Virus record (IMG/VR): IMGVR_UViG_3300009151_000053
Location: 1 to 64,000 of that record
Direction: 5' to 3' (one strand)
Length of the DNA: 64,000 nt
DNA from: a virus
In this document: piece after piece, positions 5,526 through 15,790 of the stretch
How the letters are laid out: each line of letters opens with the position of its first letter
Position numbering within the stretch: the first letter of the stretch is position 1
Position numbers and translations under genes: made by a program
Notes under the pieces: generated by a model
Databases searched by the model: none
What the model was told of the DNA's origin: nothing
Seen by the model: only the letters and a program-made list of their open reading frames with translations

Positions 5526-7032
5526 ATGCTGTGCCGAAATACATATGATATCCAGAAGAAGGATCATGATATGCTGGAGGCGGAACATTCTTTCCATTGC
5601 CTGCCATCATTCTTGGGCTTGATCCAGTTCCCGATTTTCCTGTGGCAGCGGTTTGAGTTGTCTGCTTCTTAACGATAGGCTTTTGTGTCTGAGACAGAGC
5701 AACATCATTAGATGCCATCGCTACTTTAGGAGTTTCAGCAGGAGATGGTTTTCCTTTAGGACCGTCATCAACAGCAAGAAGAACTTTGCGTTCTTCTTCA
5801 ACTCGTTTGGCAACACCCGCTCTAGTCTTATCATCACTACTCTTGAATCTTGTTGAAACAGTGCTGGATTTGTAATCTTGAATAGCATTGATTATTTCTT
5901 TATCAGACATAGATTTGGTATCTTTGCCTTTTAATGCTTTTTGTATGACACTTGTGTTCGCGCCATATTGATTGGCTGTACTGAAGATTGCTTCTTGCAC
6001 ACCAGCACCACGACCAGATAAATCTATGCCCGCTTTTTGTAATTTTGCAACTTGTGGATTATAATGAGTCTTAGCAGCATGTGCTTGTTGAGCGGCGCCA
6101 AACTCTTTAGTCTTTCCTAGTTCCTTCCACTTAGCATCAAACTCTTTTGACCCAACTTCCATACCAGCAAACTGTTTGGAATATCCACTTTCTTTTAGAA
6201 ACTTTTGAACATCGCCTGTTTTAGATGACAGTTGGAATTTGCCGTAACTTTTTCCACCAGCATCGCCTTTGCCAGTTGACACAGTTCCTGATTTACCGCC
6301 ACTCTCAAAGAATGCAGCAACTTTACCAAGACCTTCACCAACACCTTTGCCAATAGCAGTCGCGCCTTCACCAACTTTTTCAGCAGCCTGTTTACCAACA
6401 GCAACCGCACCTTCACCAACCTGTTTACCAACAGCAACCGCTTTCTTAGCGCCCTCTTTTACTTTGCCACCAAGGTGTCCAAAAAACTCTTTGATTGAAT
6501 CAATGATGTTCTGGAACTTTTCAGAAACAACAGCAAATCCATCTTTGATGTTTTGGATCGCAGTCTTTATGCTATTGACTATAGGACCTATAAGATGCAT
6601 TGCACCTAGTACGGCAAACTTGATGCCCTCTCTGATCGCTTTATCTAAGAAACCTTCTTTACCTTTTTCTTTTTTATCGCCTTCTTCGCCATCTTTGGGA
6701 ACTTTGTCTGCGTGTTTTTCTTGTGCATTCTCTGTTGCTAAACGATTTGCTTGTAACGATTGGTCTTTTTGAAGATTCATTGAATCTTGTAAAGTTGTAT
6801 CAATAGATTTGGCGCGACTTAAGATAGATTTGATCAGACCTGTGTTACTGGCTGATGGAGATGATATGCTTTGTTCCGATGATGTGTCAGAAATAGCAGA
6901 ATACGGAACAGTCTTACCAGCAGGAAGAGGCATAGGAACAGACATTTGAGCACGGATTTGCTCCATTGCTTTAGGAGAAAACCCTGCTGCCTCTAAAACT
7001 TCCGGCGATTTATATACTGTAGGTAGTCCCAT
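5524..7032 (-). CDS. Tape-measure/baseplate-hub-like protein with lysozyme-like domain
   Basis: A 502-residue virion protein. Residues 1-130 are polar and probably extended or coiled; about 137-155 form a hydrophobic segment (FAVLGAMHLIGPIVNSI), then Gly/Ala/Lys-rich repeats (VGEGAVAVGKQ, VGEGATAIGKG) at roughly 195-235. About 240-400 resemble the peptidoglycan-hydrolase domain of some phage structural and VgrG-related proteins: FESGG with a candidate catalytic Glu, KSYGKFQLSS, and a later VQEAIFSTANQYG. It follows the gp26-like chaperone candidate, the usual place of a tape measure; the ATG abuts the stop of the -1 extension (TAAATG). T4 gp29 has 590 residues. Tape measure, hub (gp27-29 equivalent) or both remain possible; the lysozyme domain is the better-supported part. 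Confidence 0.6.
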   Translation of the reverse strand: MGLPTVYKSPEVLEAAGFSPKAMEQIRAQMSVPMPLPAGKTVPYSAISDTSSEQSISSPSASNTGLIKSILSRAKSIDTTLQDSMNLQKDQSLQANRLATENAQEKHADKVPKDGEEGDKKEKGKEGFLDKAIREGIKFAVLGAMHLIGPIVNSIKTAIQNIKDGFAVVSEKFQNIIDSIKEFFGHLGGKVKEGAKKAVAVGKQVGEGAVAVGKQAAEKVGEGATAIGKGVGEGLGKVAAFFESGGKSGTVSTGKGDAGGKSYGKFQLSSKTGDVQKFLKESGYSKQFAGMEVGSKEFDAKWKELGKTKEFGAAQQAHAAKTHYNPQVAKLQKAGIDLSGRGAGVQEAIFSTANQYGANTSVIQKALKGKDTKSMSDKEIINAIQDYKSSTVSTRFKSSDDKTRAGVAKRVEEERKVLLAVDDGPKGKPSPAETPKVAMASNDVALSQTQKPIVKKQTTQTAATGKSGTGSSPRMMAGNGKNVPPPAYHDPSSGYHMYFGTA

Positions 7033-7212
7033 TTAGGTCTCTTCTATTATTTGTTTTTGTTTGTTTAAGAAGTCAAGAAGCATATCAACATATAGATCAC
7101 GTTCATAGGGCATGAGATTTTCTAAATCTGTTATTGAATATTTATGATGCTGAACCATTGAGAAAATCACGGTATAATAATTACTAAGACTAGTATGACT
7201 CAGCCCAAGGTA
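7033..7212 (-). CDS. -1 frame extension of the gp26-like protein (frameshift product)
   Basis: An open frame of 59 codons that has no convincing start of its own but continues in frame, after a -1 slip, from the gp26-like gene at the run of seven T on the minus strand (7218-7212; zero-frame codons TTT TTT). The extension reads YLGLSHTSLSNYYTVIF..., with LENLMPYERDLYVDMLLDFL near the end, and stops directly before the ATG of the tape-measure-like gene. The fusion would have 293 residues against 237 for the unshifted product. This matches the G/GT tail-assembly-chaperone arrangement of lambda-type and many other tailed phages. An internal ATG (SMVQHH) lacks a clear ribosome-binding site. The frame and slip site are seen; the shift is inferred. 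Confidence 0.6.
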   Translation of the reverse strand, partial: YLGLSHTSLSNYYTVIFSMVQHHKYSITDLENLMPYERDLYVDMLLDFLNKQKQIIEET

Positions 7213-7913
7213 AAAAAATCACGGAGCGTATCCAACACAATCTCTCTGTCATTATCAAGTGAGTTTTTATATTTGATCGTGTAGATAAGTTTTGGTGTGT
7301 TATCAATGAACTCTTTTACTTTCTCAAAACTTTTGGTATCGATGCTATCGATAAAGGTCTGGAGTTCTTCATCGGTATGTTCATATACAGGATAAACAGT
7401 TTCTTCATCATAAATCTCAACAATACATTTCTTAACAAAGAAATTCAAAACATCATCCAATCCATCTTCTAGATCGTCTGCTTCATCAAATACTGATGCT
7501 GTTGGATGCTTCATAATCATACCAATACCATTACCAAGTTGAATATTGTTATCGATGGCTTTTGGGCGAGTAACTTGGACTTCTTCTAGATCGATCTTAA
7601 ATGTATATTCTTTTTCATCTTCTCTATCTTTGTATTTGACTTCAATGATATTGTTGACCGACCGTGATCTTAGTTTTAAGAAGATGAATTCGATGTCCGT
7701 CATGGTAAGACTGTCAATATCCAAATCTTCTGAGATACAACAGTTATTGATTATCTGTTTAATAGACTTGAGAATATCTCTATTGCTATCCGATTGTTGG
7801 GCCATCAATAGAATCTTTTCCTCTTTGACAAGGAAAGGCCTAAACTCATAAGTCTTGTTGAATGAAGGAATTTCAATTTCAAATATTGGAGATTGGATTT
7901 TTGGTAAAGCCAT
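7200..7913 (-). CDS. gp26: Baseplate hub subunit / tail-assembly protein, gp26-like
   Basis: A 237-residue protein matching the T4 gp26 baseplate family (208 residues): MALPKIQSPIFEIEIPS at the N-terminus, RPFLVKEEKILLMAQ, IINNC, then an acidic middle region and YTIKYKN near the end. gp26 is needed for assembly of the T4 hub, where gene order is 54, 26, 51 and hub genes in the neighbourhood; here the order is gp54-like, this gene, tape-measure/hub-like. It ends a few codons after a TTTTTTT run that would allow a -1 shift into a 59-codon extension. GGAAAA precedes the ATG, 2 bases after the upstream gene's stop. gp26 identity is good; chaperone-like function is inferred. Confidence 0.8.
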   Translation of the reverse strand: MALPKIQSPIFEIEIPSFNKTYEFRPFLVKEEKILLMAQQSDSNRDILKSIKQIINNCCISEDLDIDSLTMTDIEFIFLKLRSRSVNNIIEVKYKDREDEKEYTFKIDLEEVQVTRPKAIDNNIQLGNGIGMIMKHPTASVFDEADDLEDGLDDVLNFFVKKCIVEIYDEETVYPVYEHTDEELQTFIDSIDTKSFEKVKEFIDNTPKLIYTIKYKNSLDNDREIVLDTLRDFFTLG

Positions 7914-7915
7914 GA

Positions 7916-8779
7916 TTATTTTCCTTTGGTTGCAGTATCGTCCGCAGATGTTTCAATAGTGAGATATGTATATTTGATAGTTGTTGTGAACTTCATCATA
8001 TCTCCATTACCAGAATCTAAGTTAATAGGATTTGTGGATTCTGGGTATGCATCAAACAGTGTGACTTTGGTTTTTCTGTTGTTGTTGTAATCATACACAT
8101 ATATTTGCATTTGCTTACAGATGTAGTCATCTTTATATGTTAGTTCAAATGGCATATTGCCGCCTGCAGGTGCCATGCCTTTTGACACGTCATAGTTTAT
8201 GATGTGATTTGTCCATTTATTAAAATAGTCGATCACTTTGGTTTCTCTATCAACAACGAATGTCAATGCTATACTGTCAAACTTGACACCATATGGGCGT
8301 TGTTCTCTAACACCATATCCATATCTGAAGATATCCATGTTATTAAAAGACATTCCAGGCAAAACAACATTTTCACATCTCAATGTCAAAAACTCGTTTC
8401 TTAAATCAAAATACTGATTTGTCATAGGATCATTGGCAAAAATAAGTGGTCGAGGCATTACTACCAAAAATCTATTTGTTGGTAGAATGCCGTTCTCGTT
8501 TATTTCTGTTCTGAAGTTTTGTATATCAAAAGAAGTTTTTTGTGCAATATTAGGATTTGGAACAGATTTTAAATTCTGTATTTCTTGTTGTGTTGATATT
8601 GCTTTTTTGTTAATCGGATCATACGGCTTACCCGTTTGAGGATTAAGTCTTTGAGAATCGCTCATGTTATACTTAGAAGCGTCTTCTATTGATCGAGTTG
8701 CGAAATCTTTAGAAGCAGCAAGACGCGCTCTGTCCGCCGACAGTTCTTCATCTGATGAAATCAATCCAAATAATGCCAT
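7916..8779 (-). CDS. gp54: Baseplate tail-tube initiator, gp54-like
   Basis: A 287-residue protein with the tail-tube-like fold seen in T4 gp54 (320 residues) and gp19: FDIQNFRTEINENGILPTNRFLV, FLTLRCENVVLPGMSF, YGYGVREQRPYGVKFDSIALTFVVD, and YKDDYICKQMQIYVYD. gp54 sits on the gp48 ring and nucleates polymerisation of the tail tube. The first ~80 residues are polar and lack similarity I can name. It heads a minus-strand operon with gp26-like and tape-measure-like genes. AGAGGG lies before the ATG, and a late promoter is at 8862-8869. A gp48 candidate is encoded separately at 10518, which favours gp54 for this one; assignment to gp19 is less likely because of the long N-terminus. Confidence 0.75.
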   Translation of the reverse strand: MALFGLISSDEELSADRARLAASKDFATRSIEDASKYNMSDSQRLNPQTGKPYDPINKKAISTQQEIQNLKSVPNPNIAQKTSFDIQNFRTEINENGILPTNRFLVVMPRPLIFANDPMTNQYFDLRNEFLTLRCENVVLPGMSFNNMDIFRYGYGVREQRPYGVKFDSIALTFVVDRETKVIDYFNKWTNHIINYDVSKGMAPAGGNMPFELTYKDDYICKQMQIYVYDYNNNRKTKVTLFDAYPESTNPINLDSGNGDMMKFTTTIKYTYLTIETSADDTATKGK

Positions 8780-8881: not shown

Positions 8882-9442
8882 ATGATTCATAAACATCATA
8901 TTATTCCCAAGCATATGGGCGGCACAGACGACACAGATAATCTTATTGAATTGAGTGTTGAAGAACATGCAGAAGCGCATAGAATGCTTTATGAACAACA
9001 TGAAAGAAAAGAAGATTATCTCGCTTGGAAAGGATTATCTGGACAAATTGATAAAGAAGAAATATTAAAAGAAATATATGTAAAAAATGGAAAAAAATTA
9101 GGTAAAAAAAATATAGGAAGAATTCCTTGGAATAAAGGATTAACAAAATCAGATCCAAGAATTAAAGCGAGTGCTGATAAAATGTGTAAACCAAAAACAG
9201 AAAAACATAAACAAGCACTGCGTAAACCAAAATCAGATAAAGGTAATATAGGAAAATACGAAAGAACGGATGAAACAAAACAAAAACTGAGAGAAGCGAA
9301 TGTTTTACGGTTTAATGAAGAAGGTCGCAAAAAACACTCGGAAATAATAAAAAACAATAGAAGAAAATGCAGTTATTGTGATATGGTATCAAATGTATCA
9401 AACATAACCAGACACGAAAAGAAATGTCCTAAATCTGTCTGA
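8882..9442 (+). CDS. HNH homing endonuclease with NUMOD3 repeats and C-terminal zinc finger
   Basis: A 186-residue free-standing endonuclease. The N-terminal HNH motif is HKHHIIPKHMGGTDDTDN (HH at 5-6, N20) followed by EEHAEAH with the third His near 29-33. NUMOD3-type motifs follow (GRIPWNKGLTKS, DETKQKLREAN), and a C-terminal finger has C163, C166, H178 and C182, similar to the finger of GIY-YIG gene 2. AAAGG lies 10 bases before the ATG, and its own late promoter is at 8843-8850. Its last 14 bases overlap the 3' end of the opposing gene, the same tail-to-tail placement as both GIY-YIG genes. Likely a mobile element inserted between structural genes. Confidence 0.88.
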   Translation: MIHKHHIIPKHMGGTDDTDNLIELSVEEHAEAHRMLYEQHERKEDYLAWKGLSGQIDKEEILKEIYVKNGKKLGKKNIGRIPWNKGLTKSDPRIKASADKMCKPKTEKHKQALRKPKSDKGNIGKYERTDETKQKLREANVLRFNEEGRKKHSEIIKNNRRKCSYCDMVSNVSNITRHEKKCPKSV

Positions 9443-13830: not shown

Positions 13831-14556
13831 ATGACAACACAAAATATGGGCGAAGAAGGATTCACTTGGTTTGTTGGTATCGTGGAAGATATCGTAGATC
13901 CACTAAAAAATGGAAGAGTTCGCGTTAGAATCTTAAACGAGCATTTCAATAAAATTGAGACTGCTGATCTTCCGTGGGCAATCGTGATGATGCCTATCAC
14001 ATCAGCGGCGTTTGATGGTGTTGGAATTTCACCCACTGGCGTTTTCAAAGGATCATACGTTGTTGGGTTTTATCTCGATGGTAAAGAGAAAGCCAAACCA
14101 TTAATCATGGGAACGTTCAATCTTTCTGCAAGAGGTGGCAACGAAAAGAATAATGACGTGTCCAAGATTGCTAGAGGGCTAGCGCCAGTCCAAAAAGATT
14201 ACTTAGACTATGAGCCGCAAACAAACTATAAAGCAGTCTACCCCTTCAACAAGACAATGACAACTGTTGCTGGGCATGTAATCGAAGTTGATGATACACC
14301 TAAGTCTGAAAGAATTCATGTATATCATACAAGCGGAAGTTACATCGAAATCAATCCAGATGGTACGGTTGTAGCAAAGGCTGTTAAAGACAATATTGAT
14401 ATTACAATCGGAGACAAGAACATTATTGTGGAATCTGGTGATATGTCTATTGTTGCGATAAATGGAAAGATTACTATACAAGCCAAAGGTGATGTTGAAA
14501 TTAGTTCTGGTGGAACTCTCAGTATTCTTGCACCATTGGTAAATATCAATGGTTAA
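13831..14556 (+). CDS. gp5: Baseplate central spike, gp5-like without lysozyme domain
   Basis: A 241-residue protein with the N-terminal OB-fold of gp5 (FTWFVGIVEDIVDPLKNGRVRVRI, DLPWAIVMMPITSA, GSYVVGFYLDG, PLIMGTFN) and a C-terminal triple-stranded beta-helix needle (SGSYIEINPDGTVVAKAVKD, then repeated I-x-I strands to VNING). T4 gp5 has 575 residues because a lysozyme domain lies between these parts; here the OB-fold runs into the needle through about 40 linker residues and no lysozyme motif is present. The needle pierces the outer membrane during contraction. It follows the gp27-like gene closely, and its last 8 bases overlap the next coding region. Confidence 0.85.
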   Translation: MTTQNMGEEGFTWFVGIVEDIVDPLKNGRVRVRILNEHFNKIETADLPWAIVMMPITSAAFDGVGISPTGVFKGSYVVGFYLDGKEKAKPLIMGTFNLSARGGNEKNNDVSKIARGLAPVQKDYLDYEPQTNYKAVYPFNKTMTTVAGHVIEVDDTPKSERIHVYHTSGSYIEINPDGTVVAKAVKDNIDITIGDKNIIVESGDMSIVAINGKITIQAKGDVEISSGGTLSILAPLVNING

Positions 14557-15790
14557 AAGAATCAAGTTATACGTCCCAAAGCCACTAGAGTTAGAATGTA
14601 CTCCAGATGGAAACATCGACTATAAGAGTTTGCATGATTATTTTCGTGTATTGGGAACTATTCCTGGACAGTTGAAAGCACAACTAAAAGCCCTAGCATA
14701 TGAAATGATTGATGAGGCAGTCGCTGATCTTTACAAACTAATCCAAGACATTGAAGACTTGATTAATGAAATCACTGGCTGGCTTCTGACTGATGTGTTC
14801 CAACGTATCAAGAACTTCGAACACGAGATGGAATACAAGATCCGCGAGTTCATGAAAGAGATTGATATTTACTTTCAAAAGAAGATTATTGAAGTCATCA
14901 CAAAACTGTTCAAGCAAGTTGTTGACATTATCAACTTTCCTATTCCATTTCTACCGCCTATTCGTATCTTTGACTTCTTTACAAAGGAGGGTAAGGTAAA
15001 GATCAAGGCTATGATCGCTGAGAATATCCACGACATTGTAGAAGCATTGAACAAGATTGATAAACGAATAGCACTGTTCTTTACAGGCAAGTTGACATTG
15101 AACATACCAGAATATTCTGCTGAAGAGATTTGGCAAAAACTTATTGCATACATTCAGAAGATCATTAATGACTGGTTGGCTGAAGTGATCGAGTTCATTC
15201 GTAATCTTCCTATTATCAAACAGATTCTTGGTGTGCTGAAGTTTCTTCAAGACCCTACCAAGGCTATTCAAGAGGCTATGGACAAAATATGGGATGATGT
15301 GCTACAGGCTATAGCAGATGCCAAGAAAGCCGCTATGGAAGCCATAGATGAACTGATCGATTCGATTCTAAACTTCCCTGTACCGATCTTCGGAACGCTC
15401 GGAGAAATGCTTGGTATTGATATCAAGGCTGAGGCTCGCAAGTTCAAGGTTCATATGAAAGAACTGTTACTTGCTCGTATCCATGATCTGTGGAATCAGT
15501 TGATGGAACGTATTCGCAAGTTCTTTGCTTATGGATGGTTAGAAGAACTTTACAATCTGTTAATGAAACTGGTGCAAAAGATTCTAGACAAGTTCCCAAT
15601 ACTTAAAGACATTATCGCTGCATTGAAGTTGATCATTGACATTCTTACAGGTAATGTAAAGGTCTGCGAGGTCATAAAGATAATATTACCCGTGATCTTT
15701 GATCTGTTTGGTTTGGTATATAAACTTATTCCTAGTGATGTGTTTGAAGTTATCTATACAGATTATGGCTATGAGCCAGCAACTAAATAA
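14549..15790 (+). CDS. Long-helix structural protein of the baseplate operon
   Basis: A 413-residue, almost wholly alpha-helical protein of unknown function. It alternates amphipathic helices with Pro-breaks and shows an internal repeat: DIINFPIPFLPPIRIFDFF at about 130 and SILNFPVPIFGTLGEMLGI at about 270, each preceded by a long charged helix. Such a rod-like make-up suits a tape-measure or hub-internal protein; a cytoplasmic assembly factor is the alternative. It sits between the gp5-like spike and gp25 in an overlapping operon (8-base overlap with the spike gene). No named family recognised. Confidence 0.6.
   Translation: MVKRIKLYVPKPLELECTPDGNIDYKSLHDYFRVLGTIPGQLKAQLKALAYEMIDEAVADLYKLIQDIEDLINEITGWLLTDVFQRIKNFEHEMEYKIREFMKEIDIYFQKKIIEVITKLFKQVVDIINFPIPFLPPIRIFDFFTKEGKVKIKAMIAENIHDIVEALNKIDKRIALFFTGKLTLNIPEYSAEEIWQKLIAYIQKIINDWLAEVIEFIRNLPIIKQILGVLKFLQDPTKAIQEAMDKIWDDVLQAIADAKKAAMEAIDELIDSILNFPVPIFGTLGEMLGIDIKAEARKFKVHMKELLLARIHDLWNQLMERIRKFFAYGWLEELYNLLMKLVQKILDKFPILKDIIAALKLIIDILTGNVKVCEVIKIILPVIFDLFGLVYKLIPSDVFEVIYTDYGYEPATK

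Follow-up and report, generated by a model that had tools for sequence, protein, structure and literature searches.

Comparative sequence evidence makes it very probable that a minus-strand gp26-like gene in a metagenomic virus record encodes a tail-assembly chaperone in short and long forms, a pair similar to G/GT, which would be produced by programmed -1 ribosomal frameshifting. The window, which is the whole stretch of DNA that was analyzed, comprises 64,000 nucleotides of an IMG/VR record of 82,212 bases (~82 kb). A sequence-only reading of the window had proposed that a -1 shift gives rise to two tail-assembly chaperones, one short and one long, immediately ahead of the tape-measure gene; comparison with related phages strongly supports this proposal. 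In the proposed mechanism, most ribosomes would read gp26 to its TGA codon, giving a short form of 237 residues. A minority would move one base back on T_TTT_TTT, both tRNA-Phe pairing anew in the -1 frame, bypass the stop, and add a 59-residue gp51-like domain, so that the predicted long form has 293 residues (234 + 59). By analogy with gpG/gpGT of phage lambda, the domain present in both forms would cover the tape-measure protein, whose gene follows directly, and the additional domain would bring in tail-tube subunits. In lambda itself, the tape measure is bound by the common domain and the tail subunit by the extra one, at about 30:1 (PMC5009743). We infer the slip, its frequency, and the action of the two proteins from the arrangement described below, and the roles in binding the tape measure and the tail subunit are carried over from lambda.

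The short form (TAC-N) is encoded at positions 7913–7200 on the minus strand, and its coding sequence ends with GAT TTT TTT ACC TTG GGC TGA. The run of seven T at 7218–7212 constitutes the slippery heptamer, T_TTT_TTT, which is read as GAT TTT TTT in the zero frame and lies in phase as X_XXY_YYZ within the gene, while the TGA stop codon (7202–7200) lies 9 nt 3' of it. The -1 frame is closed immediately 5' of the heptamer and remains open for 59 codons after TTT TTT (7212–7036), encoding the extension (TAC-C), and the long-form stop codon TAA (7035–7033) abuts the ATG of the next gene at 7032. The gene end, the T-run, and the codon counts given in the sequence-only reading are exact to the base, and its open -1 frame of 59 codons ending in TAA against an ATG was recovered as described. 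Upstream of the locus are genes for a gp19-like tail tube, a gp2-like end protector, and a gp4-like head closure protein, with the tail-tube gene (8779–7916, minus strand; phrog_45 E=1.5e-28, PF23849, PF06841) directly upstream of the gp26-like gene. The chaperone gene is thus located between the tail-tube gene and a long downstream open reading frame (ORF), a putative tape-measure gene, and this order is the same as the V - G/GT - H order of lambda. The window also contains an ORF resembling an HNH-type homing endonuclease (8882–9442), which lies between the gp2-like and tail-tube genes but runs on the other strand, and two GIY-YIG-looking ORFs (604–1164 and 2070–2717) with no Pfam match.

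The gp26-like protein matches the Pfam profile PF12322 (T4_baseplate) with 170.9 bits against a cut-off of 24.5 (E=4e-50), and over its length it matches phrog_150, labeled 'baseplate hub' (E=8e-57). The extension matches positions 59–113 of the 121 of phrog_634 (E=3.8e-22), whose label, 'baseplate hub assembly catalyst', is that of T4 gp51, and it is the sole phrog_634 match across the whole 82-kb source record. No Pfam profile matched the extension. The AlphaFold model of the gp26-like protein has a pLDDT of 91 and matches models of the T4-like gp26 family. A search of the PDB with this predicted fold gave no significant match to a solved structure, the HK97 chaperone 2ob9 being second-ranked (E=0.8, prob 0.20), and a fold link from gp26 to solved chaperones was therefore dropped.

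The 502-residue protein encoded downstream (7032–5524, minus strand) is a putative tape-measure protein, as judged from its position and from the annotation of its counterparts in Caulobacter phage Cr30 and Sinorhizobium phage phiM12 as tape measures. In relatives, a long and highly variable ORF usually begins within a few bases of the extension stop codon, and in some of them a short ORF of about 80–200 codons lies between the two. At its C terminus the window protein has a VgrG3-like/GH46-like lytic domain (PF21277, E=2e-61), which suggests that cell-wall degradation is built into the tape measure. An alternative tape-measure candidate is a helix-rich protein of 413 residues encoded between the gp5-like and gp25-like genes (14549–15790), which has a weak likeness to tape-measure profiles (best 6e-7) that is probably due to its coiled-coil composition.

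Relatives of the locus were collected by tblastn, which returned 651 phage records, and by scans of IMG/VR, which gave further loci. The gp26 end could be read in 186 loci, which were collapsed at 90% protein identity to 84 representatives. A gp51-like frame in the -1 register together with a canonical in-phase heptamer (T_TTT_TTY), located 7–16 nt before the gp26 stop codon, is found in 74 of the 84. The heptamer is T_TTT_TTC in 48 of these and T_TTT_TTT, with all seven T, in the other 26 (the window and 25 others). Its holders include Kyanoviridae cyanophages and the distant isolates phiM12, Cr30, Aeromonas CC2, Acidovorax ACP17, Stenotrophomonas Mendera, Vibrio D484, and Citrobacter Ci1, and it persists where protein identity to the window is as low as ~24–27%. 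The sequence-only reading had turned to related phages for the fate of the slip site and of the open -1 frame after gene 26; far from lacking both, all 74 representatives with the same layout have kept the two, and the -1 frame encodes one conserved domain throughout.

The same comparison bears on the accuracy of the T-run, since homopolymer runs are prone to assembly and sequencing error and the true gene might be one continuous fusion. In one relative, Stenotrophomonas phage IME-SM1, the T-run is one base shorter than in the closely related Mendera; the difference breaks the usual arrangement of the frames and is either a sequencing error or a true variant. This is the single one-base variant seen among the relatives, and the arrangement is repeated in 74 representatives that include isolate genomes, most of them with a run of six T. 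Error as a general explanation is refuted by these relatives, and for the window its probability is negligible.

The remaining 10 representatives consist of seven T4-type Tevenvirinae, considered below, and three Ackermannviridae-type phages in which the -1 frame is present without a canonical heptamer. At the level of single loci, seven relatives from Ackermannviridae and Vibrio phages (L191–L193, L195, L091, L093, and L094) carry a gp51-like ORF in the -1 frame of gp26 without an X_XXY_YYZ motif; most have TTTTC just before the stop codon, GR28A has CTTTC, and some have TAATG. The Ackermannviridae-type relatives may shift at a weak site resembling the GTTTTT of the Vandenendeviridae, or reinitiate. 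This exception caps the reach of the slip-site rule and has no bearing on the window.

Sequence comparison indicates that both the heptamer and the open frame are under selection. The codon 5' of the Phe pair encodes Asp, Ser, Asn, or Ala, yet it ends in T in 74/74 representatives where 46.5/74 would be expected, and the first Phe codon is TTT in 74/74 where 46.3/74 would be expected, the expectations being taken from the codon use of the genes themselves. The joint log10 P values are about -15.6 for the T-ending codon and -17.2 for TTT when the sequences are treated as independent; the 74 representatives share ancestry, so these values overstate independence and serve as strong qualitative evidence. 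At other Phe-Phe sites in the same 74 genes, T_TTT_TTY occurs at 5 of 85. TTTTTTY is also rarer in the window than expected (23 seen vs 49 expected) and yet stands in phase at this site in 74/74, so the heptamer is present more often than chance would allow. As the residue before the Phe pair varies, conservation of the heptamer, read from these alignments, acts at the codon level.

RNA folding 3' of the slip site was scored over 68 nt with a synonymous-codon null, in which the encoded extension and its codon usage are preserved. The mean z is -1.80 over the 74 representatives, compared with -0.36 and -0.19 for control stretches within gp26 and farther 3', respectively (Mann-Whitney p=4e-9). 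In the 14-member clade of the window the mean z is -4.2, and the window itself, at about -1.9, is among the weaker members; against dinucleotide shuffles the window alone is unremarkable (z -0.13 to -1.05). The excess of folding is relevant to whether the slip would be made by the ribosome or by RNA polymerase, which could yield mRNAs of different length from the T-run. Transcriptional slippage is possible at a run of seven T, and all seven are T in the window and in 25 other representatives; however, the layout is the same in the 48 of 74 representatives that have just six T (TTTTTTC), and both the strict phase and the T that precedes TTT are consistent with tandem tRNA slippage. Together with the folding excess, these features make slippage by the polymerase very unlikely and favor ribosomal frameshifting.

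A candidate stem of 9–10 bp is the common feature of the window's clade. In the window, its candidate 5' arm, GCUGAGUCAU (7204–7195), begins 7 nt after the heptamer and pairs at 10 of 10 positions with the 3' arm, AUGGUUCAGC (7158–7149), the nine inner pairs are retained in most clade members, and the stem takes in the gp26 stop codon. Pair counting within the clade gave 83% paired in register vs 18–44% when slid, with no excess over letter (pair) shuffles, and RNAalifold returned no consensus structure for the clade; the candidate stem therefore rests mainly on the synonymous-codon null. No Rfam family matched at 6900–7950. On the 5' side, a Shine-Dalgarno (SD)-like motif lies 8–11 nt upstream of the slip site in 52 of the 74 representatives. 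The motif is enriched 5' of the slip (82% vs 15% background), which is partly forced by a conserved Glu-Gly. Unlike most relatives, the window lacks this 5' stimulator. The 22 representatives without the motif fold more strongly 3' (mean z -3.15 vs -1.25), a difference confounded by ancestry. It is possible, and to us close to an even question, that the superfamily keeps a constant slip site but replaces the stimulators around it, the clade of the window lacking the 5' SD-like element and carrying the 9–10 bp stem instead, so that different RNA signals would set the ratio of short to long form in each lineage.

The extension could in principle be a small gene of its own, translated from its own start codon or by termination-reinitiation, with the T-run incidental. 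It is annotated as a separate gene in Cr30, S-ShM2, phiM12, and Melnitz, and in many cyanophages an ATG lies in frame near extension codon 3. In the window, however, the -1 frame has no ATG, GTG, or TTG within its first 14 codons, and any start codon in it lies 3' of the conserved YLGLSHTSLSNYY; two further relatives (L002 and L015) have none before codon 43. The sequence-only reading had singled out a conserved-looking segment of the extension, and YLGLSHTSLSNYY is indeed conserved, the extension being a phrog_634 domain. Incidental T-runs would not persist in 74/74 representatives with a fixed phase and biased codons, and in T4 gp51 both domains are fused in one protein. A separate gp51 gene, which is very unlikely overall, was rejected because, in the window and in several members of its clade, conserved residues are encoded ahead of the first possible start. 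Frameshifting within a single gene would account for the extension instead.

The seven T4-type Tevenvirinae representatives have neither the heptamer nor a gp51 frame after gp26, and T4 gp26 ends with GAG TTC TTT GAG. Gene 51 of T4 is separate and lies on the strand opposite to gp26. Its product matches phrog_150 over residues 3–248 of 249 (E=2.6e-84) and phrog_634 as well, the alignment profiles of gp26 and T4-type gp51 match each other (hhalign E=9e-12), and a model of T4-type gp51 retrieves gp26 proteins in a structure search. T4 gp26 therefore corresponds to the short form and T4 gp51 to the long form, with the gp26 domain plus the extension, as paralogous separate genes. T4 gp51 is needed for assembly and is absent from the final particle (review, PMC3004832). 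Tevenvirinae, with a separate gene 51 and without the heptamer, provide a natural control for the frameshift reading. The suggestion that gp26-like proteins are the equivalent of G/GT in the T4 superfamily thus has comparative support, with the correction that frameshifting is absent from T4 itself. Most of the T4-like lineages in this sample probably rely on the shift, and the T4 group has two paralogous genes instead. In hundreds of cyanophage genomes, the entries labeled 'baseplate hub' and 'hub assembly catalyst' probably represent a single gene with two products, for which a joined CDS would be the right annotation.

Tail-assembly chaperones of T4-like phages with this switch were reportedly identified by Vladimirov, Gautam, and Davidson (2022, Virology 566:9-15, PMID 34826709), whose abstract is said to name genes 26 and 51. 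The sequence-only reading knew of no such shift for T4 gp26, a statement that is out of date, since papers citing that work describe poly-T -1 slip signals in TAC-N genes of T4-like phages (PMC12846349) and separate short and long chaperone genes in some of these phages (PMC10885494). A 2016 NAR review had listed T4 as an exception to conserved G-T frameshifting (PMC5009743). The phenomenon is already reported for several T4-like phages, to which the window adds a very clean new case. The additions here are this new member, the codon-level statistics, and the clade-specific candidate stem, the last two of which may have been published earlier.

As far as the 2022 report and its citing papers describe them, the T4-like chaperones resemble the window in their short and long forms and poly-T -1 frameshift, with separate genes in some phages, and the window differs as a new, unannotated metagenomic member. 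T4 gp26 and gp51 contain the same two domains as the window locus, but they are two diverged genes on opposite strands without a slip site, whereas the window has one locus with a slip site. In the Vandenendeviridae/Andersonviridae, represented by phage Adele, a conserved -1 frameshift likewise precedes the tape measure, with the slip motif GTTTTT (PMC12846349) in place of T_TTT_TTY. Lambda gpG/gpGT resembles the pair predicted for the window in that a -1 slip late in the short form adds a C-terminal domain, just before the tape-measure gene; the lambda heptamer is not T_TTT_TTY, the proteins belong to different families, and the fold of the window protein has no significant match to solved chaperones.
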